DNA of 64,000 bases, taken from contig CANRSX010000009.1 of NCBI GenBank assembly GCA_947642555.1, forward strand, positions 62,001-126,000, given 5' to 3'. The notes under the pieces are model-generated. The model was not told the DNA's origin and made no database searches. It saw only the letters and a list, made by a program, of their open reading frames with translations. Positions 8,472-46,056 of the stretch are shown piece by piece; the first letter of the stretch is position 1; every line of letters starts with the position of its first letter. The position numbers were made by a program, and so were the translations under genes. The DNA comes from an uncultured Roseburia sp. Its GTDB lineage: Bacteria > Bacillota > Clostridia > Lachnospirales > Lachnospiraceae.

Positions 8472-8499
8472 ATTATAATCCATCTGATTTTCTTGTCAA
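8472..8499 (-). promoter_or_regulatory. Predicted promoter for the GT-D gene
   Basis: On the minus strand, TTGACA (8499-8494), 16-base spacer, TATAAT (8477-8472): a consensus sigma-A promoter. It is back to back with the promoter at 8511. Confidence 0.8.
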
Positions 8500-8510
8500 G
8501 CCCGCGCACA

Positions 8511-8539
8511 TTGACAAACTGCCGGTTTTTTCGTATCAT
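8511..8539 (+). promoter_or_regulatory. Predicted promoter for the aminotransferase-fucosyltransferase operon
   Basis: TTGACA (8511-8516), 17-base spacer, TATCAT (8534-8539), 41 bases before the ATG at 8581. It probably drives the five tightly spaced genes to 14768. Confidence 0.8.
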
Positions 8540-8580
8540 GTTAATAGCAATGAGCAGTGCCAGGGCAGAAAGAGGCAGAT

Positions 8581-9699
8581 ATGGATAAAATTTTAGTGAC
8601 CCGGTCTTCGATGCCGGAGTTTGAGGAATACGTGGAGGAGATCCGCGGTCTGTGGGAGAGCCACTGGCTCACCAACATGGGAGAAAAGCACGTCAGACTG
8701 GAGCAGGAGCTGGCGGAGTACTTAAAGGTGGAGAATGTATCGCTGTTTTCCAACGGCCACATGGCGTTAGAGCTTCTGATCCAGGCGATGGGTCTGACCG
8801 GGGAAGTGATCACAACGCCGTATACGTTTGCGTCGACGACACACGCGATTGTGCGCAACGGCTGTACGCCGGTATTCTGCGATATCAGCCGTGAGGATTA
8901 CACGATAGACATCTCAAAGATCGAGGCGCTGATCACGGAGCGCACCAGCGCGATTCTTCCGGTGCATGTATACGGAAATATCTGCGATGTGGAGGAGATT
9001 GACCGGATCGCGAAGAAGCATGGCCTGAAGGTGATCTATGACGCCGCGCATACCTTCGGGGTGGAATATCGCGGCCGCGGGATCGCGTCATTTGGCGACG
9101 CGTCGATGTTCAGCTTTCACGCGACCAAGGTGTATAACACGATTGAGGGCGGAGCGGTATGTTTTCCCGGGACAAATGAGAAGCTGAAAGGGGATCTGTA
9201 CGGCCTTAAAAATTTCGGGATCCGCAGCGAGGAGGTTGTGGACGAGATCGGGGCCAATTCGAAGATGAATGAATTTCAGGCCGCAATGGGCCTGTGCAAC
9301 CTGCGCCATGTTGACGCTGAGATCAGCAGGAGAAAAGCGGTGGCGGAGCGGTACCGCGAGCGCCTTGGGAACGTGCCCGGAATCCGCCTGACCGCGGAGC
9401 AGCCCGGGGTTCGTCAGAACTACGCTTATTTCCCGGCTGTGTTTGAACCGGAGGTGTTCGGAAAAAGCAGGGATGAGATTTACGAGGCGCTGAAGAAGGA
9501 AGAGATCTATACCAGGAAATATTTTTACCCGACTACGAATGCCTTTGAGTGCTACCGCAAGCGTTATTGTCCGGAGGATACGCCGGTGGCGCTTGAGATT
9601 TCAAAGAAGGTGCTGACGCTGCCGATCTATGCGGATCTGGCCATCGCGGACGTGGACCGGATCTGCGATGCCATCCTGCGGCTGCGCGGACAGGCGTAA
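8581..9699 (+). CDS. DegT/DnrJ/EryC1/StrS family sugar aminotransferase
   Basis: A 372-residue PLP enzyme of fold type I. The expected order is present: 'FSNGHMALELLIQAM' near residue 55, 'TTPYTFASTTHAIVRNGCTPVFCDI', 'VIYDAAHTFGVEY', and 'FSFHATKVYNTIEGGAV', where Lys183 is the predicted PLP-binding residue. The family transaminates nucleotide-bound keto-sugars, for example NDP-4-keto-6-deoxyhexoses. The ATG at 8581 follows AAGAGG by five bases; an upstream GTG at 8557 is less likely. First gene of the operon from the 8511 promoter. The keto-sugar supplier is not obvious; the Gmd product GDP-4-keto-6-deoxymannose is one possible substrate (inference). Confidence 0.9.
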   Translation: MDKILVTRSSMPEFEEYVEEIRGLWESHWLTNMGEKHVRLEQELAEYLKVENVSLFSNGHMALELLIQAMGLTGEVITTPYTFASTTHAIVRNGCTPVFCDISREDYTIDISKIEALITERTSAILPVHVYGNICDVEEIDRIAKKHGLKVIYDAAHTFGVEYRGRGIASFGDASMFSFHATKVYNTIEGGAVCFPGTNEKLKGDLYGLKNFGIRSEEVVDEIGANSKMNEFQAAMGLCNLRHVDAEISRRKAVAERYRERLGNVPGIRLTAEQPGVRQNYAYFPAVFEPEVFGKSRDEIYEALKKEEIYTRKYFYPTTNAFECYRKRYCPEDTPVALEISKKVLTLPIYADLAIADVDRICDAILRLRGQA

Positions 9700-37261: not shown

Positions 37262-38680
37262 ATGTATATCGTATTATTGTCAGGGGGATCGGGCAAGCGT
37301 CTGTGGCCGCTGTCCAATGACCTCTGTTCCAAGCAGTATATCAAGCTGATGAATCACGATGCGGATCCGGCGGAGACGGGGGAGAAATGTTCCATGCTCC
37401 AGCGCGTCTACGGTCAGCTGAAAGGCGCAGGGCTGGCGGAAAATACGATCGTCTGTGCGAGCAGTGCGCAGGTGGAGCTGATCGAGAGCCAGCTTGACAA
37501 CGCGACGGAGGTGGCGGTGGAGCCGATGCGCCGGGATACCTTTCCCGCGGTGATGCTCTCCTGCGCGTACCTGCTGTCAAAAAAAGGCGCGTCGCCGGAT
37601 GACGTGGTGGCGTTTCTGCCGGTGGATCCCTACACGACCGGGGCATTTTTCCGGTGCATCGCAAGACTGGGAGACTATATTCAGTCCACGGAGCAGACGA
37701 TCGGCCTGCTCGGCGGCGTCCCCACCTACCCGTCGACAAAGTACGGCTATATCGTGCCGGAGAAGCCGGAAACCGGGGCATCCGCTGCCGGTGAAAATGT
37801 GGCAGGCAGCGAAACGCCCGCAGGAAATGCAGTGAGCGGGGCCGGCGAAACAGCGGCAGGCGATCTGCTCGGGGTGGCCGGGTTCCGCGAAAAACCGGAC
37901 GAGGCGGCCGCGGAAAAGCTGGTGGCGGACGGCGCGCTGTGGAACTGCGGGGTCTTCTGCTTCCGCCTGTCCATGGCGTCGCAGTGGCTCGCGCCCTACG
38001 GCGTTCCCTGCGATTACGACACGATGGTCGCAGATTATGAAAAGCTTCCGAAGAAGAGTTTTGACTATGAGGTCTTAGAGCACTGGAAGCCGATCGTCGC
38101 GATCCGCTACGACGATATGTGGAAGGATCTGGGGACCTGGAACACGCTGACCGAGGAGATGCCGGAACACAGCATCGGCGACGTGACCTGGGATAGCACC
38201 TGCGAGAACAGCCATGCGATCAACGTGCTCGGCATCCCGCTGGTTGTCATGGGTGCAAAGGACATGGTGATCGCGGCGTCCCACGACGGGATCCTGGTGG
38301 CGGACAAGCACCAGAGCTCCTACATCAAGGACTGCCTGGCCGGTCTGGAGGATGCGTCACGGTATGAGGAGCGCCGCTGGGGGACGATCAAGACGATCGA
38401 CAACGACGATGACGATGGGATCAAAAGCGTGACGCGGCGGATCAAGGTCATCGCGGGCCGCGAGATGCCGTGCCATATCCATGAGCGCCACACGGAGACG
38501 ATCACCGTACTCTCCGGTATGGGCAAGTTAAATGTCGAGGGGACCGAGGTGGATCTGCTCGCCGGGTCGACCGTCAGTATCGCCGCCGGGAAGGCGCATT
38601 CACTGCGGGCGCTGGGGTCGGATCTGCGTCTGATCGAGGTGAGTATCGGCGATACCGGGGCGGATGAGGTTGTGAAATGA
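37262..38680 (+). CDS. manC: Mannose-1-phosphate guanylyltransferase with C-terminal cupin
   Basis: A 472-residue protein: nucleotidyltransferase domain starting 'LLSGGSGKRLWPLSND' (the usual motif has Thr where Lys stands here), 'VAVEPMRRDTFPAVM', 'VAFLPVDPYTTG', and a cupin/PMI-type C-terminal domain with 'REMPCHIHERHTETITVLSG'. It makes GDP-mannose from mannose 1-phosphate and GTP, feeding Gmd. An Ala/Gly/Glu-rich insert (about 170-200, 'AAGENVAGSETPAGNAVSGA') interrupts the catalytic domain after 'YGYIVPEKPE', another linker expansion of this locus. Its TGA overlaps the start of the DUF262 gene as ATGA. Confidence 0.92.
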   Translation: MYIVLLSGGSGKRLWPLSNDLCSKQYIKLMNHDADPAETGEKCSMLQRVYGQLKGAGLAENTIVCASSAQVELIESQLDNATEVAVEPMRRDTFPAVMLSCAYLLSKKGASPDDVVAFLPVDPYTTGAFFRCIARLGDYIQSTEQTIGLLGGVPTYPSTKYGYIVPEKPETGASAAGENVAGSETPAGNAVSGAGETAAGDLLGVAGFREKPDEAAAEKLVADGALWNCGVFCFRLSMASQWLAPYGVPCDYDTMVADYEKLPKKSFDYEVLEHWKPIVAIRYDDMWKDLGTWNTLTEEMPEHSIGDVTWDSTCENSHAINVLGIPLVVMGAKDMVIAASHDGILVADKHQSSYIKDCLAGLEDASRYEERRWGTIKTIDNDDDDGIKSVTRRIKVIAGREMPCHIHERHTETITVLSGMGKLNVEGTEVDLLAGSTVSIAAGKAHSLRALGSDLRLIEVSIGDTGADEVVK

Positions 38681-39852
38681 AGATAGAAACGCAGAAGACG
38701 GAGTTTGCAGAATATTTAAAACAGGAAGAGAAAAACGAGCTGGAGTACAGCGGCATTGAGGCGGACGATGAATCCACGGGAGAAGATACAGAGAGCGACG
38801 GGCCCTATGAGGTTCAGAATATCCGGGTCGCGCAGAAGATGATTACCGTCTACCAGATCGAGCACTGGATTTCTGCGAAAAACGGGACGAAGCTGGAGCT
38901 GTTTCCAGAATACCAGCGGAATCTGGTGTGGGATGATCAGCGGAAAAGCGCGCTGATCGAATCTCTGATGCTGCGGATTCCGATACCGGCGTTTTATCTG
39001 GATGAGGATAACGAAGGAAATAAAAGTGTGATTGACGGCATGCAGCGTCTGACCACCATTCATTCCTTTTTAAACAATGAATTTGCCCTGAAAAAACTGC
39101 AGTATCTGTCCGACTGTGAAAATAAATATTTTCGTGATTTGGAGCCGAAGCTTCGCGCCCGGATCGAGGACACGGAGCTCGCGGTAAATATACTGGATGA
39201 GAGATGCCCGCAGCCAGTGAAGTTTGACATATTTCGGAGATTAAATACAGGCGGGCTCCCGTTAAATGATCAGGAAATCAGAAATATTATGGCGCAGCCA
39301 GGAGTAAGGATTCTCCTTCGGGAAATGGCGTCCTGCGAAGAGTTTCTGTGTGCGACGAATGGCGGCGTAAAAGATATCCGCATGGGAGCGCAGGAACTGT
39401 GCCTGCGATATCTGACTATCCTGGGATACTATGACTGGGACAAAAGAGATTTCCGTGAGTACCGCGGTCTGAAGAAAATGATGGATCGGACGATTCTGGC
39501 ACTGAATGATATGATAGAAGATGAGCGGAAAAGAATACTAATAACGTTCAGGCGGGTGATGTCCGACTGTTACAGGATTCTCGGGGAGAATTCTTTTTGC
39601 AAGCCAGGTCAGAAGAAAGTCAATAAATCCCTGTTTACCGGGTGGGCGGTTATTTTTACAAATCGCAGGCCGGATGCGGAAATAGAGGAAAAGAACATAG
39701 AACATCTCAGAGACGCATACCAGAGACGGCTTGAGTATGATACTGAGTTTTATAATGCGATCACGTCATCCACCGGAACGAGGAAGCATATTGTAATATC
39801 CATCAACCGGATTCGTGGATTGTGGGAGGAATATTTTGATACAATCGCTTGA
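38677..39852 (+). CDS. DUF262 (GmrS/SspE N-domain-like) protein
   Basis: A 391-residue protein. After an acidic N terminus, 'PEYQRNLVWDDQRKSALIESLMLRIPIPAFYL' and 'VIDGMQRLTTIHSFLNN' form the DUF262 core; the D-G-x-Q-R motif (Asp120-Arg124, here DGMQR) is the ParB-like nucleotide-using site known from GmrSD and SspE. 'DIFRRLNTGGLPLNDQEIRNI' is a further family block. The DUF1524 HNH nuclease domain found in GmrD is absent; the C-terminal half is helical. It overlaps manC by four bases but its composition is visibly more AT-rich, and the ATPase gene overlaps its end. Likely first gene of a three-gene defence-like cassette (inference). Confidence 0.85.
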   Translation: MKIETQKTEFAEYLKQEEKNELEYSGIEADDESTGEDTESDGPYEVQNIRVAQKMITVYQIEHWISAKNGTKLELFPEYQRNLVWDDQRKSALIESLMLRIPIPAFYLDEDNEGNKSVIDGMQRLTTIHSFLNNEFALKKLQYLSDCENKYFRDLEPKLRARIEDTELAVNILDERCPQPVKFDIFRRLNTGGLPLNDQEIRNIMAQPGVRILLREMASCEEFLCATNGGVKDIRMGAQELCLRYLTILGYYDWDKRDFREYRGLKKMMDRTILALNDMIEDERKRILITFRRVMSDCYRILGENSFCKPGQKKVNKSLFTGWAVIFTNRRPDAEIEEKNIEHLRDAYQRRLEYDTEFYNAITSSTGTRKHIVISINRIRGLWEEYFDTIA

Positions 39853-40918
39853 ACTAAAAAATTTTAAATGCTTTGACCAGTTAAAACTACAACTTGCGAA
39901 AATGAATATTCTGGCGGGAAGCAACGCTGCGGGAAAGTCCAGTGTCATACAGGCGCTGCTGCTTGCGGACGCAACCTCACGGGAAAAAGGAGATTCCGTT
40001 GACGCGACGGAGGCGTTAGGGGTAGCGGTTGGAAATCCAAGGGCTCTGATCGCGCAGAACCGGCAGGAGCTCGCAGAGGGGGATTTTTCCCTGCACGTCC
40101 GCCGGGGAGAGACGGAGGTTTCTTATATCTACCGTATTGACAGGCTCAACTCTTTAAAATTATCTTACACACAGACAAAGGATGTCCCGGGAGACAGGCT
40201 GTTTTATCTGAATGCGGAGCGGTTAGGGCCGCGCATTTCCTATCCGGCAGGCGAGGATGAGGGGATATTGCGGGATGGCTCCAATGCGGCCTATCTGATC
40301 GACCGCGCGGATCTTCAGCGGAGAGAAGTGCCGGACTGCCTGATGCTGGAGGAGGGGAAATCCAGATTTTCGATTCAGGTGGAGAACTGGATGAACCTGA
40401 TTCTGGGGGACGTCAGCTTTTCGGTCAGCACGGATTATGTCAGAGCTGCCACGGATATCCGGTACGGAAACGGCCTGGCGGAAGAGCCGGTGCTTCCCAC
40501 TATGACCGGATTCGGGATCAGCTATATTTTATCAGTGGTCACAGCAGGTTTGTGGTGTGCGTCGCTTCGAAATACGACTCTGATGATCGAAAATCCGGAG
40601 GCGCATCTGCACCCGGCAGCGCAGAGCAGGATGGGAAAGTTCCTGGAGCTTCTGACGGAGGCGGGAGTACAGCTGATCGTAGAGACCCACAGCGAACATA
40701 TCATAGACGGGGCAAGGGTGCAGGCTGCGGTAATGAGACAGACCGATCAGATGCACATCTGGTTTTTTTCAAAGGAAGCAGATCGTATCCAGGTGGATCA
40801 GATTGACGTCAATGAATATGGCGAGCTGTCTGAGTGGCCAAAAGGATTTTTTGATCAGAAAGAGCAGGACCTGCGGGATTTGTTTTACATGAGGAGAACG
40901 CATGCAGATCACAAATAG
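39836..40918 (+). CDS. AAA family ATPase, DUF3696/OLD-like
   Basis: About 360 residues. 'LELKNFKCFDQLKLQLAKMN' followed by Walker A 'GSNAAGKSS' (Lys34) begins an ABC/RecF-type ATPase. Near the C terminus 'ENPEAHLHPAAQSRMGKFL' (signature and Walker B region with Glu) and 'VETHSEHIIDGAR' (H-loop) complete the head; the tail 'FDQKEQDLRDLF' is of DUF3696 type. No Toprim nuclease domain is fused. The start is placed at TTG 39836, five bases after GGAGGA (39825-39830); a GTG at 39815 is an alternative. It overlaps both neighbours by 17 bases, so all three genes are translationally coupled. Likely the sensor or motor of the cassette. Confidence 0.85.
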   Translation: MIQSLELKNFKCFDQLKLQLAKMNILAGSNAAGKSSVIQALLLADATSREKGDSVDATEALGVAVGNPRALIAQNRQELAEGDFSLHVRRGETEVSYIYRIDRLNSLKLSYTQTKDVPGDRLFYLNAERLGPRISYPAGEDEGILRDGSNAAYLIDRADLQRREVPDCLMLEEGKSRFSIQVENWMNLILGDVSFSVSTDYVRAATDIRYGNGLAEEPVLPTMTGFGISYILSVVTAGLWCASLRNTTLMIENPEAHLHPAAQSRMGKFLELLTEAGVQLIVETHSEHIIDGARVQAAVMRQTDQMHIWFFSKEADRIQVDQIDVNEYGELSEWPKGFFDQKEQDLRDLFYMRRTHADHK

Positions 40919-41813
40919 CCTGGAAGAAAAAAGCTTTGCATATTCCGCCGAAAAAGAAACTATGGATGCGCGCAGGGATGAAATCGGCCGTCTGATGGAA
41001 ATCGTATCCTATTGTCAGGAAGACGAGGTAGGAGAGCCGATACGGTATCATGATACATTGTGGGAAATCTGTGTGCAGGAAGGCGTTACCTTTACCGGGT
41101 GGCTGTTTAACCGGGAAGGGGCGGGCAGCGCGGATGACAGGCGAAGGCTTCTGGATGCGCTGAGTAAAAATGTGATGATTCCGATGGATGAAACGCCAGA
41201 TACTGAGAAAGGTCTGACCGGCGTAAAAGCGGGATCAGAAGAGAATACGGCAGATCAGAAGACGATACGCGTCGCCCTCGGGGAATTCCCCTCCTGTGTG
41301 TCTGACAGGGAAGCGTATGTCAGGGCGCGCAGAAAGATCCTTTCCGGGATTCGGAATGTTACAGAATACGAGGCGTTTATGCATTCCTGTTTTATTGACA
41401 GCTGCTTTGCAGAAGGGATGCTCTCTGAGATGAAGCATATCCGGGATTTCCCGGACCGGACAGAGGAGATTACAAAGGCACTTGGGGTTTTAAATGACCA
41501 TGCCGTCGAATTATACCGGCAGTATTCCGGGCATCTGGAGGAGGCGATGAACAGACTGTCCGTGCTGCTGCACAGGGAATGTGCGCCGGACCCGGCACAT
41601 GCGGACAGGCTGATCTTTCCGTTCGTATACAGTGAGCAGCTGGAGGATAAGACTGTGGCAGTGATAAAAGATATCGAATGTTCTCCGCATCTGAAGCTCA
41701 TGCATTCGGGATCCAATCTCAGAATTTATTTTTACTGGTGTGATGATAAAATCGGCGGAGGAGAAAAAGTGCTGGTGGGCAGGATCGGACGGCATCCATA
41801 TAAAAAATCTTAA
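40902..41813 (+). CDS. Unrecognised third protein of the DUF262/AAA cassette
   Basis: A 303-residue soluble protein I do not recognise. Residues 1-110 are mixed and acidic, with a possible two-helix N terminus; about 140-225 is helical ('EYEAFMHSCFIDSCFAEGML', 'LGVLNDHAVELYRQYSGHLE'). The last ~70 residues look like a compact beta domain ending 'SNLRIYFYWCDD' and 'GEKVLVGRIGRHPYKKS'. The pattern R-I-Y-F ... V-G-x-I-G-x-H resembles endings of small toxin-like or RelE-fold proteins, but this is only a visual similarity. ATG 40902 is preceded by GAGGAG and overlaps the ATPase gene by 17 bases. It may be the effector or the regulator of the cassette. Confidence 0.7.
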   Translation: MQITNSLEEKSFAYSAEKETMDARRDEIGRLMEIVSYCQEDEVGEPIRYHDTLWEICVQEGVTFTGWLFNREGAGSADDRRRLLDALSKNVMIPMDETPDTEKGLTGVKAGSEENTADQKTIRVALGEFPSCVSDREAYVRARRKILSGIRNVTEYEAFMHSCFIDSCFAEGMLSEMKHIRDFPDRTEEITKALGVLNDHAVELYRQYSGHLEEAMNRLSVLLHRECAPDPAHADRLIFPFVYSEQLEDKTVAVIKDIECSPHLKLMHSGSNLRIYFYWCDDKIGGGEKVLVGRIGRHPYKKS

Positions 41814-41864
41814 ATTGTTTCACACTTTCGTAAAATAGGGGTGGATTTACGCGGGAAACTGCGT

Positions 41865-41870
41865 TATAAT
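41865..41870 (+). promoter_or_regulatory. Possible -10 box for the blaI/blaR-like pair
   Basis: Perfect TATAAT, 154 bases before the blaI-like start, with only a weak -35 match upstream. The leader between it and the gene (41871-42023) has no gene or clear BlaI operator that I can see. Confidence 0.35.
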
Positions 41871-42023
41871 AGTAGGGTAGCCTGTTCTTCTTTTGTAAAG
41901 CGAAGTGCAGGACTATATTTTGAATATGATAATACGCAGTGCCGGTGGAGAGAACGGTAATGCGCAGTAGCCTGGAATGTCAGGTAAACGAGTGCGCTGC
42001 GGAAGTAGAAAGGAGAATGATGT

Positions 42024-42398
42024 ATGGATGTGACGAATATCTCAGCATGTGAAAGACTTGTAATGAAAGTCATATGGGATTCTTCGGAGGATTTGGCGCT
42101 ACAGGAGATTATGGGGGGTGTGAACTCAGAGAATAATAAGTGCTGGAAGCCGCAGACAGTTTCCACTTTCCTGACAAGACTGGTGAAGAAGGGCTTTTTA
42201 TCTCTTTACCGCAAGGGCAGATACTGCTATTATCAGCCGCTTGTACAGAAGTCCGATTACTGGAAGGCCACGATGGAGGAGAATGCAAGATTTTTCACAA
42301 AGGGAGATATGAGCGAGATGGTGAACTGCATCTGCGATGACTTCCTCTCAAAGGAGGATCTTGACAAACTCAGGAAGAAGTTAAATGCGTCTGATTAG
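42024..42398 (+). CDS. BlaI/MecI family transcriptional repressor
   Basis: A 124-residue protein with the BlaI winged-helix layout: 'ISACERLVMKVIWDSSEDLALQEIM', recognition helix region 'WKPQTVSTFLTRLVKKGFLSL', wing 'RKGRYCYYQPLV', and a C-terminal helical dimerisation part. BlaI repressors bind operators as dimers and are inactivated by cleavage after a partner BlaR1-type protease senses a signal. AAGGAG lies eight bases before the ATG. It overlaps the BlaR1-like gene by 14 bases, as expected for the pair. Target genes are not evident; autoregulation is likely. Confidence 0.93.
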   Translation: MDVTNISACERLVMKVIWDSSEDLALQEIMGGVNSENNKCWKPQTVSTFLTRLVKKGFLSLYRKGRYCYYQPLVQKSDYWKATMEENARFFTKGDMSEMVNCICDDFLSKEDLDKLRKKLNASD

Positions 42399-43824
42399 TC
42401 AGATCGTTTATGCACTGGTCAGCATGACGCTTACCGGAACACTGGCGCTCGGTGTATGGTGGACAGTCGTGAGAATCTGTGAAGGGAGGTACCCGGAGCT
42501 CGTGTACCTGATGTTGCGGATTGTCTGTCTCCTGTATCTGGTGCCAGTTGTTTATTTTCTGATGAGACTGACCGTGCATGACGGATACATACACAGAGAA
42601 GGCATACTCGGATGGGAGTTTATGCTTGCAGGGATAGAATGGCAGGTCGGTACGGTCATAGGTGTGGCATGGATGCTGTTTATGCTGTTCAATTTTGTCT
42701 CGATTCTTGTAAAAAGCAGGGACGAGAAGAGAAAGCTTCGGAGTGCGGGCACGCCTGAGGACGACCCGGCGGTGCTCGCGGAGTTTGAGCGCGTGGCAGC
42801 CAGGATGAGGATTCGCAGGAAGATCCGTGTGTATCGGAATTCCTGTCTCGGCAGTCCGGCGATCGGCGGGATCTGCTTCGTGAAGATCTACCTGCCATAC
42901 GGGAACTTCACGCGGGAGGAGCTGTCGGTGGTCTTTCATCATGAGCTGGTACACTTCAGACAGCATGACCGGTTCTTTCACCTGATCAGCAGATTCGCCG
43001 GTATTCTGCTCGGCGCGGGATCGATTCCCGGCAGGCTCCCGGAGTTTCTGACCGAGTGGAGCGAGATCTGCTGTGACAGGCGCACGGTCGAAGCGCTCGA
43101 CGGTGAGGTGGACGAGAGGCGTTATTTTGAGATAATTGTGAACATTATGGAAAAGATTTCTGGCCGGTACTGTGGGGAATTCGTATATTCTACGTTATAT
43201 GAAAGTCACCTGAGACTGGAAAGGAGAATCGGATACATGATGGAGTACAGGAAGACAAAGCCGGTGGCGAAGGGAGCGGCAGCGCTCGCGGCGCTGGCGT
43301 TTATCACGATGAGCGTCTCTACGACATACGCGGCTGGCGTGCAGATTTCGGAGGTTCATGATTTCGTTTACGGGTATGCGGAGGAAACAACGGCGGATCC
43401 GCTGTCCATGGATGCTGATGCGGAGCTGACGGAGGTCTATCTGCCGGCGGAGGAGGACGACACCTACGACGAGGTCGTGTACGGCGAGGTAGAATTTGTG
43501 TACACGGAGGACGGAATCGCGCCGCTTTTAGATGCGAACGAGATGGCGTCCTTCAACTGGCCGGTGCTGCCGGGTCAGCGGTATATCTCGAAGAACTTCT
43601 ATGTGAAGAGCGGGCAGAAGATTGTTATGTCATGTTCAACAATACCGGCGAGCAGCGTTTACTGGATCGGGATCATGGACAAGTGGAACAATGTCCGCTA
43701 TGTGGAAGGGTCCGGTGCTCTTGGACATGAGTTCGCGATCAGCAGCTCGGGCGATTACTGTGTGCTGGTGCAGAACCGCAGCGACGTGAATATCACTGCA
43801 GGCGGAAGCTACTACTTCTATTAA
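42385..43824 (+). CDS. BlaR1-like M56 family metalloprotease sensor
   Basis: A 479-residue membrane protein. Helices near 1-30, 35-60 and 85-110, then the M56 peptidase loop with 'FHHELVHFRQHD' (HELVH at 186-190, zinc ligands His186 and His190, catalytic Glu187) and the later 'EICCDRRTVEAL' with the third ligand Glu. A final helix lies at about 293-313. The outside C-terminal part (about 315-479) is acidic then beta-rich ('GQKIVMSCSTIPASSVYWIG', 'AISSSGDYCVLVQNRSDV') and has no penicillin-binding S-x-x-K module. So it is a BlaR1-type protease with a different sensor domain. It should cleave the adjacent BlaI-like repressor. Confidence 0.88.
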   Translation: MRLISQIVYALVSMTLTGTLALGVWWTVVRICEGRYPELVYLMLRIVCLLYLVPVVYFLMRLTVHDGYIHREGILGWEFMLAGIEWQVGTVIGVAWMLFMLFNFVSILVKSRDEKRKLRSAGTPEDDPAVLAEFERVAARMRIRRKIRVYRNSCLGSPAIGGICFVKIYLPYGNFTREELSVVFHHELVHFRQHDRFFHLISRFAGILLGAGSIPGRLPEFLTEWSEICCDRRTVEALDGEVDERRYFEIIVNIMEKISGRYCGEFVYSTLYESHLRLERRIGYMMEYRKTKPVAKGAAALAALAFITMSVSTTYAAGVQISEVHDFVYGYAEETTADPLSMDADAELTEVYLPAEEDDTYDEVVYGEVEFVYTEDGIAPLLDANEMASFNWPVLPGQRYISKNFYVKSGQKIVMSCSTIPASSVYWIGIMDKWNNVRYVEGSGALGHEFAISSSGDYCVLVQNRSDVNITAGGSYYFY

Positions 43825-45248: not shown

Positions 45249-45455
45249 ATGGCAACTTCAAGCATCACGAAAAATTTTGTCATTTCGGGTAAGGAGCAGG
45301 TGGAGATGTTTGTCAATGCGATTGAAGAATCTGCCAAAAACCGTCCTGTCCGTACTCCTGTAGCTGTAAAATTTATAAAGGGTGAAAAGGAATTGCGGGA
45401 ATTGATGAGATTTAGGGAAATGAAAGAAAAGGAGAAAATGAATGCTGATAAGTGA
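45249..45455 (+). CDS. Small antitoxin-like protein
   Basis: A 68-residue protein: 'SSITKNFVISGKEQVEMFVNAIEES' at the N terminus, then a basic stretch and a charged helix ending '[16 protein letters not shown]'. I do not recognise a named domain, but small proteins of this type precede GNAT-fold genes in Lachnospiraceae and act as candidate antitoxins. AAGGAGG (45234-45240) lies eight bases before the ATG, which fixes the start over a GTG three codons upstream. The end overlaps the GNAT gene by 14 bases. Composition is more AT-rich than the polysaccharide genes, suggesting transfer. Confidence 0.7.
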   Translation: MATSSITKNFVISGKEQVEMFVNAIEESAKNRPVRTPVAVKFIKGEKELRELMRFREMKEKEKMNADK

Positions 45456-46056
45456 TAAGTTTTACGCGGTCAACATTCGTGAGTATCTTGCATTAGGAGA
45501 TGATCCTGAAGCCGGAGAGCCTGCGCTTGCGAAACTGCTCTCCGGATTTTCATGCCCGAAGAATCTGGATGTTGAACGATTTTTGAAAAAAAGCGCGATA
45601 GAGTTTACAAAAAAGAACCAGTCTGTTACATATGTGGTGCTTTCGGTAAAAGATGGCAGCCTGCTTGGGTATTTTACTCTTGCACTAAAGCCTTTGACGA
45701 TCAGGGGCGAAACAGTAAGCAATACCACAAAAAAGAAGCTTTTGCGTGTCAGTGAACTGGATAAAGTGTCGGACACCTATACGATGGCTGCTTACCTGAT
45801 TGCACAGCTTGGGAAAAATGATACGGGTGGCAGAGATAAGGAAATTACAGGAGAAGAACTGATAGAATTAGCCTGGATGGTAATTGAAGAAGTACAGTAT
45901 ATGTTTGGCGGAATGGTAACATTTTTAGAAGCGGAAAATGAGGAAAAGCTGTTATCGTTCTATCGGAGCAACCGTTTTTTACAGTTTGACACCAGACAGA
46001 CTGCTTCAAACCTAGATGAGTCGCATGAGCTTGTACAGTTATTACGTTTGCTCTAG
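45442..46056 (+). CDS. GNAT-fold acetyltransferase, toxin-like
   Basis: A 204-residue protein with a GNAT outline: '[21 protein letters not shown]' (beta-2 to beta-4 hairpin), '[15 protein letters not shown]' (the core strand before the acetyl-CoA loop), and '[21 protein letters not shown]', the last helix-turn typical of acetyltransferases. The genetic setting (small upstream partner, 14-base overlap, AT-rich, own promoter) matches GNAT toxins of the TacT kind, which acetylate aminoacyl-tRNA. Whether this one is toxic cannot be seen; it may be an ordinary acetyltransferase. The ugd gene starts 36 bases later on the same strand. Confidence 0.75.

Follow-up and report, generated by a model that had tools for sequence, protein, structure and literature searches.

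A predicted Menshen (NsnABC) anti-phage defence cassette between manC and blaI in an uncultured Roseburia sp.

Three overlapping genes in the genome of an uncultured Roseburia sp. (contig CANRSX010000009.1; the 64,000 nucleotides analysed are referred to below as the window) form, in all likelihood, a Menshen (NsnABC) anti-phage defence cassette that is located between manC and blaI. The names NsnA, NsnB and NsnC are, we assume, those of the Menshen system, which was reportedly described by Millman et al. in 2022. Judged from its proteins, the cassette adds a further, divergent member to a described kind of defence and is not the undescribed system that the initial annotation had proposed, given that models of Menshen match and that the same layout is in print under the name ptuXYZ. 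The Menshen match thus removes one candidate from the list of new systems.

Gene layout and affiliation with Menshen

The cassette consists of three genes arranged head to tail on the plus strand, as had been read from the open reading frames, with overlaps of 17 bases between consecutive genes. The first gene, nsnA (38677..39852), encodes a DUF262 (GmrSD_N) protein of 391 aa; nsnB (39836..40918) encodes a RecF/OLD/PtuA-type ATPase with a DUF3696 tail; and nsnC (40902..41813) encodes a third protein of 303 aa, the probable effector. The overlap of nsnA and nsnB amounts to 17 bases because the nsnB start was taken at TTG 39836, which is preceded by GAGGA and gives a protein of 360 aa; the alternative start is GTG 39815, and the Pfam and PADLOC scans of NsnB were run on this longer frame. 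Three further plus-strand genes flank the system without belonging to it. Upstream lies a manC-type mannose-1-phosphate guanylyltransferase gene (37262..38680; Pfam NTP_transferase and MannoseP_isomer), the stop codon of which overlaps the nsnA start by four bases (ATGA). Downstream are a blaI-type repressor gene (42024..42398; identified by Pfam Penicillinase_R and by the site comparison) and an M56 (BlaR1-type) peptidase gene (42385..43824; Pfam Peptidase_M56) that adjoins blaI in relatives as well. The GC content is 0.469 in nsnA, 0.522 in nsnB and 0.500 in nsnC, compared with 0.611 in manC, 0.448 in blaI and 0.540 in the M56 gene, so the AT-richness initially ascribed to the cassette relative to its flanks is clear on the upstream side only.

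All three proteins match the Menshen models of PADLOC over nearly their full length, which bears out the earlier reading of a defence-type cassette. NsnA scores 331 bits (residues 16-386 on model positions 13-382 of 385), NsnB 277 bits (model positions 2-343 of 345) and NsnC 95 bits (model PDLC03899, positions 1-298 of 299); the same NsnC model scores higher in two related loci, with 161 bits in L041 and 181 bits in L037. A chance arrangement is excluded because the three proteins match the profiles of one system and related triads occur elsewhere.

Pfam detects GmrSD_N alone in NsnA (1.3e-25), with no DUF1524/HNH nuclease domain, and the protein contains IDGMQR, so that both the D-G-x-Q-R motif and the lack of an HNH nuclease had been recognised correctly. 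The DGxQR motif is present in all 88 NsnA-type proteins of the parsed loci described below, and the DHIxP motif of the DUF1524 HNH domain was found in none of the 88. For NsnB, the Pfam matches to AAA_15, AAA_21 and DUF3696 agree with its initial description as a RecF/OLD-like ATPase with DUF3696. NsnB has nine Pfam matches at E up to 1; none is to a Toprim family, the one at the C-terminus is DUF3696, and the Walker A motif is kept in 82 of 83 NsnB proteins. The NsnB profile matches best, among PDB sequences, those of OLD (6p74, 8.2e-18) and PtuA (8ee4, 7.8e-11), and the NsnA profile shows a weak match (E 0.0035) to chain 7p9k, which we take to be BrxU.

In a review, Menshen is presented as a DUF262 system without DUF1524, in which the DUF262 gene is located beside a gene for a predicted OLD nuclease, and mutating or deleting the DUF262 gene is said to abolish resistance (PMC10952713). 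The window cassette resembles Menshen in the nearly full-length matches of the three proteins, in the gene order and in the DUF262 protein without DUF1524. It differs in its divergent NsnC (95 bits), in that no Toprim domain was found in NsnB whereas the review names an OLD nuclease (PMC10952713), and in being inserted alone beside manC. The same layout as that of nsnABC is presented as a novel potential defence locus, the ptuXYZ operon, in a 2025 paper that does not contain the word Menshen (PMC11980606). Like nsnABC, ptuXYZ encodes, in this order, a DUF262 protein, a PtuA-like P-loop ATPase and a third protein with two domains, modelled as a PIN-like domain followed by a C-terminal BECR (HigB/YoeB-like) domain (PMC11980606). 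For the window NsnC, neither the profile comparisons nor the full-length fold search described below gave a significant match to such a domain. The likeness to nsnABC is taken from the published description of the layout.

The remaining systems are more distant. The DUF262 protein PD-T4-2_A of PD-T4-2 reaches 113.8 bits against the window NsnA, far below the 331 bits of the NsnA model. The type IV restriction enzymes GmrSD and BrxU share DUF262 with its D-G-x-Q-R motif, along with the weak 7p9k match, but have the DUF1524/HNH nuclease domain that the window NsnA lacks; membership in GmrSD was rejected on the missing DUF1524 HNH domain with DHIxP. The ATPase domain is common to NsnB, OLD, Gabija GajA and Septu PtuA, as its best profile matches (6p74 and 8ee4) indicate, but no Toprim domain was detected in NsnB, and PADLOC models other than NsnB score at most 103 bits. 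Membership in OLD or Gabija was rejected on the missing C-terminal Toprim nuclease domain and far lower PADLOC scores, and membership in PARIS on missing domains or far lower scores.

These matches bear on two other readings of the cassette. One holds that it is an undescribed defence system with a new effector as its third protein, to which the lack of Pfam and NCBIfam matches above cut-off and of a significant fold match for NsnC would lend itself; with NsnA, NsnB and NsnC all matching models of one described system, and the same layout already published (PMC10952713, PMC11980606), this reading is extremely unlikely. The other takes the cassette for a Menshen copy that has decayed and lost its function, with NsnC scoring just 95 bits, but the three frames are intact, the seven invariant C-terminal residues of NsnC are kept and the same NsnC type is found in close relatives, which makes decay very unlikely.

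The third protein and a possible mode of action

NsnC has no match above cut-off in Pfam or NCBIfam, in line with its initial description as unrecognised. Profile searches and structure prediction, earlier suggested as the way to place it, yielded the 95-bit PADLOC match and a predicted fold without significant match. The AlphaFold2 model of the full-length protein has a pLDDT of 90.9, and a Foldseek comparison with solved structures of the PDB returned nothing at E up to 0.001. The C-terminal domain (41415..41813, plus strand; residues 172-303), supported by an alignment of 25 NsnC proteins and a domain model, consists of helices followed by five strands when modelled alone (pLDDT 93.3, pTM 0.86). 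A sequence search of the PDB gave no match to NsnC at E up to 1 and a single match to the C-terminal domain at E 1.7, which is chance level. Seven of the eight invariant columns of the 25-protein alignment lie between C260 and H298 (C260, H263, K265, R274, F277, G296 and H298). The window NsnC is 43 to 49% identical to those of L042-L044 (45% over 300 aa for L043).

NsnC, the fast-changing partner, is rather more plausibly the effector of the cassette than not, and its earlier designation as the best effector candidate is supported, no HNH nuclease being detected in NsnA. Its assignment as a RelE/BECR-type RNase is tentative and somewhat doubtful. In profile-profile comparison with the Gp49 toxins, the window-type NsnC (11 of 12 loci, without L198) gives E values of 0.067 to 0.13, which are not significant, and it has no Pfam match. 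Among the 76 third proteins scanned, two match Gp49 in Pfam; the one identified is that of L110, with 26.7 bits, above cut-off, over residues 203-292. For nine distant third proteins, taken together as a mixed set, the comparison with Gp49 gives a probability of 58.6, and no profile link was found between the window NsnC and the distant set approaching Gp49 (probability 2.2).

The combined proposition that the effector domain of the window-type NsnC has a fold or chemistry unseen in solved structures, and that the cassette is coupled to manC, is improbable. The first part draws on the invariant motifs C-x-x-H-x-K, R-x-x-F and G-x-H, and the second on the start of nsnA inside the manC stop codon; if the coupling were true, defence would be expressed together with a surface polysaccharide that phages may bind. 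In L041 the C-terminal part of NsnC (8493-9299) matches PADLOC HEC-07 (1.9e-5), and in L038 (4634-5263) it matches CARF_DUF2103 (1.8e-10); in view of these matches, other defence proteins may possess the same C-terminal domain.

In DUF262 enzymes described in the review, NTP hydrolysis drives an attached nuclease (PMC10952713), and by analogy with these enzymes NsnA and NsnB would sense and switch and NsnC would execute. Under this scheme the DUF262 NTPase NsnA and the RecF/PtuA-type ATPase NsnB would constitute an NTP-driven device that senses invading DNA and acts as a switch, and NsnC would be kept inactive until this switch fires. NsnC would then serve as the effector that halts phage multiplication, its C-terminal domain being most likely a nuclease and possibly a RelE-like RNase. 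As a member of a large cluster with few invariant residues, NsnC offers precise targets for the study of Menshen effector function.

Recurrence of the triad

Among 98 related genomes, the NsnA profile has some match in 28, with nine strong places (at least 330 bits) in five genomes: two in the genome of the window itself, three in G015, two in G058 and one each in G060 and G033. NsnB adjoins NsnA in all nine, and in seven (the window, L035, L037, L038, L039, L040 and L041) the third gene matches an NsnC model, although the L038 protein is a partial one of 209 aa. In L036 the ORF after NsnB has no PADLOC match, and a recognisable NsnC partner is missing there and probably also in L034 and L071. 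L034 (8129-10364 on contig C62) is the second NsnA-NsnB pair of the window's own genome; by eye, it lies behind two genes resembling those for thymidylate synthase and dihydrofolate reductase, and the gene after NsnB, a 701-aa ORF likewise judged by eye, was not recognised as NsnC-like. A sequence search with the window NsnC found matches in three of the 98 related genomes, its own included, and model PDLC03899 matched in four of 391 genomes of the class, again including its own and with two near threshold. A pattern scan for NsnC relatives in genome contigs matched 19 stretches, none of which was confirmed; the scan was fruitless because NsnC diverges fast, and the NsnA alignment served instead.

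With this alignment, 289 relatives of NsnA were found in public genomes, in Lachnospiraceae, bacilli, Bacteroidetes, proteobacteria, cyanobacteria, Synergistales, Treponema and others. The best 80 of the 289 were kept and, with eight fetched loci, four of which are repeats, gave 88 parsed loci. NsnB adjoins NsnA in 82 of these 88. In the other six (L066, L078, L081, L091, L101 and L104), NsnB is either present outside the overlap limit (L066) or not adjacent, and L078, L081, L091 and L101, unlike L104, end less than 1 kb from a contig end. A third ORF follows NsnB in 81 of the 82 loci, the exception being L071; this is a loose class (same strand, at least 60 aa, within 350 bases behind NsnB) that takes in fragments as well as a small number of unrelated genes. 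Repeats included, 58 of the 81 third ORFs fall into one sequence-linked cluster. The family scans covered 76 third proteins, namely the window NsnC and the 75 that were left of the 81 after removal of four repeats and of the genes following NsnB in L034 and L036. Of these 76, 46 are matched by the single NsnC model with the broadest reach, a count not pooled over models, and besides the two matches to Gp49, Pfam gives one each to a hydrogenase, an integrase core, an ATPase (a split NsnB) and DUF4160. The third gene thus co-occurs with the other two elsewhere, both as NsnC-model matches at other loci and in related triads, contrary to the finding by which the initial annotation would have been set aside.

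The distance matrices of the three proteins correlate with r of 0.86, 0.77 and 0.89 across 22 triads, namely the window triad together with 21 of the other 24 members of the NsnC alignment (all but L050, L053 and L077); for each pair, the observed value was never reached in 2000 permutations. Because the permutation leaves shared descent in, the correlation indicates joint inheritance, not contact. NsnC changes fastest, with a median identity of 0.25 compared with 0.42 and 0.39 for NsnA and NsnB. In tblastn searches NsnA matched 778 plasmid and 255 phage records; most of these represent DUF262 in general, since only 16 and 1, respectively, cover at least 80% of NsnA.

Insertion site, neighbourhoods and functional alternatives

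Matches to manC are present in 44 of the 98 related genomes, and 14 of the corresponding regions (L176-L189) were compared. No match to nsnA, nsnB or nsnC was found at the manC-blaI place in any of the 14 (blastp, E up to 1e-5). In six, blaI directly follows manC with a spacer of 83 to 255 bases, and the M56 gene comes next in five; in three, manC and blaI are separated by six ORFs that make up a glycan-type module, three others show the start of this module before the stretch ends, one has two other large ORFs between manC and blaI, and in L185 no blaI was called. Upstream of blaI, the window sequence is alignable with the spacer that separates manC and blaI in relatives, and the alignment is best close to the start of blaI. 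Because the same place in relatives is empty or holds other genes, the cassette is, on sequence comparison, an accessory insertion directly behind manC and not part of the polysaccharide gene set. The place between manC and blaI-M56 (38680-42024 in the window) differs from one relative to another, being empty or occupied by a glycan module or two ORFs, and in the window by nsnABC, and it may favour the insertion of accessory genes. The comparison reveals one entry point for such genes into the sugar-coat locus of the genus.

Inspected by eye, six of the closest relatives of the triad have differing neighbourhoods, two of which (L044 and L047) appear glycan-like, and the L037 triad adjoins GajA- and PglX-like genes. 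Recurrence at different sites near defence genes, earlier named as support, is therefore seen in these differing neighbourhoods, with L037 as the single case beside such genes, and the set is not confined to this polysaccharide locus. The triads of L039, L044 and L047 are situated, by eye, among glycosyltransferase and other glycan-type genes.

A role in the polysaccharide locus, in which the genes would serve or regulate sugar-coat synthesis together with manC, would fit the start of nsnA within the manC stop codon, the absence of a listed promoter-like site directly before nsnA and the glycan-type surroundings of L039, L044 and L047. However, the cassette is missing from this position in all 14 regions compared, its other copies lie in unrelated neighbourhoods and its domains are those of defence systems; this function, rejected on the site comparison and those neighbourhoods, is exceedingly improbable. 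Nor is the cassette at all likely to be a selfish toxin-antitoxin-like module with NsnC as toxin and no true anti-phage role, even though it is an accessory insertion and the distant NsnC-position protein of L110 matches the Gp49 toxin family above cut-off. The ATPase and DUF262 partners are conserved, and to our knowledge such proteins are not usual antitoxins. Moreover, Menshen defence is reported elsewhere (PMC10952713).

Farther downstream, at 45442-46056, the window contains an ORF of 204 aa without match in Pfam, PADLOC or NCBIfam. Its GC content (0.424) is the lowest of the genes measured, and by eye it presumably resembles GNAT acetyltransferases of the toxin-antitoxin type.
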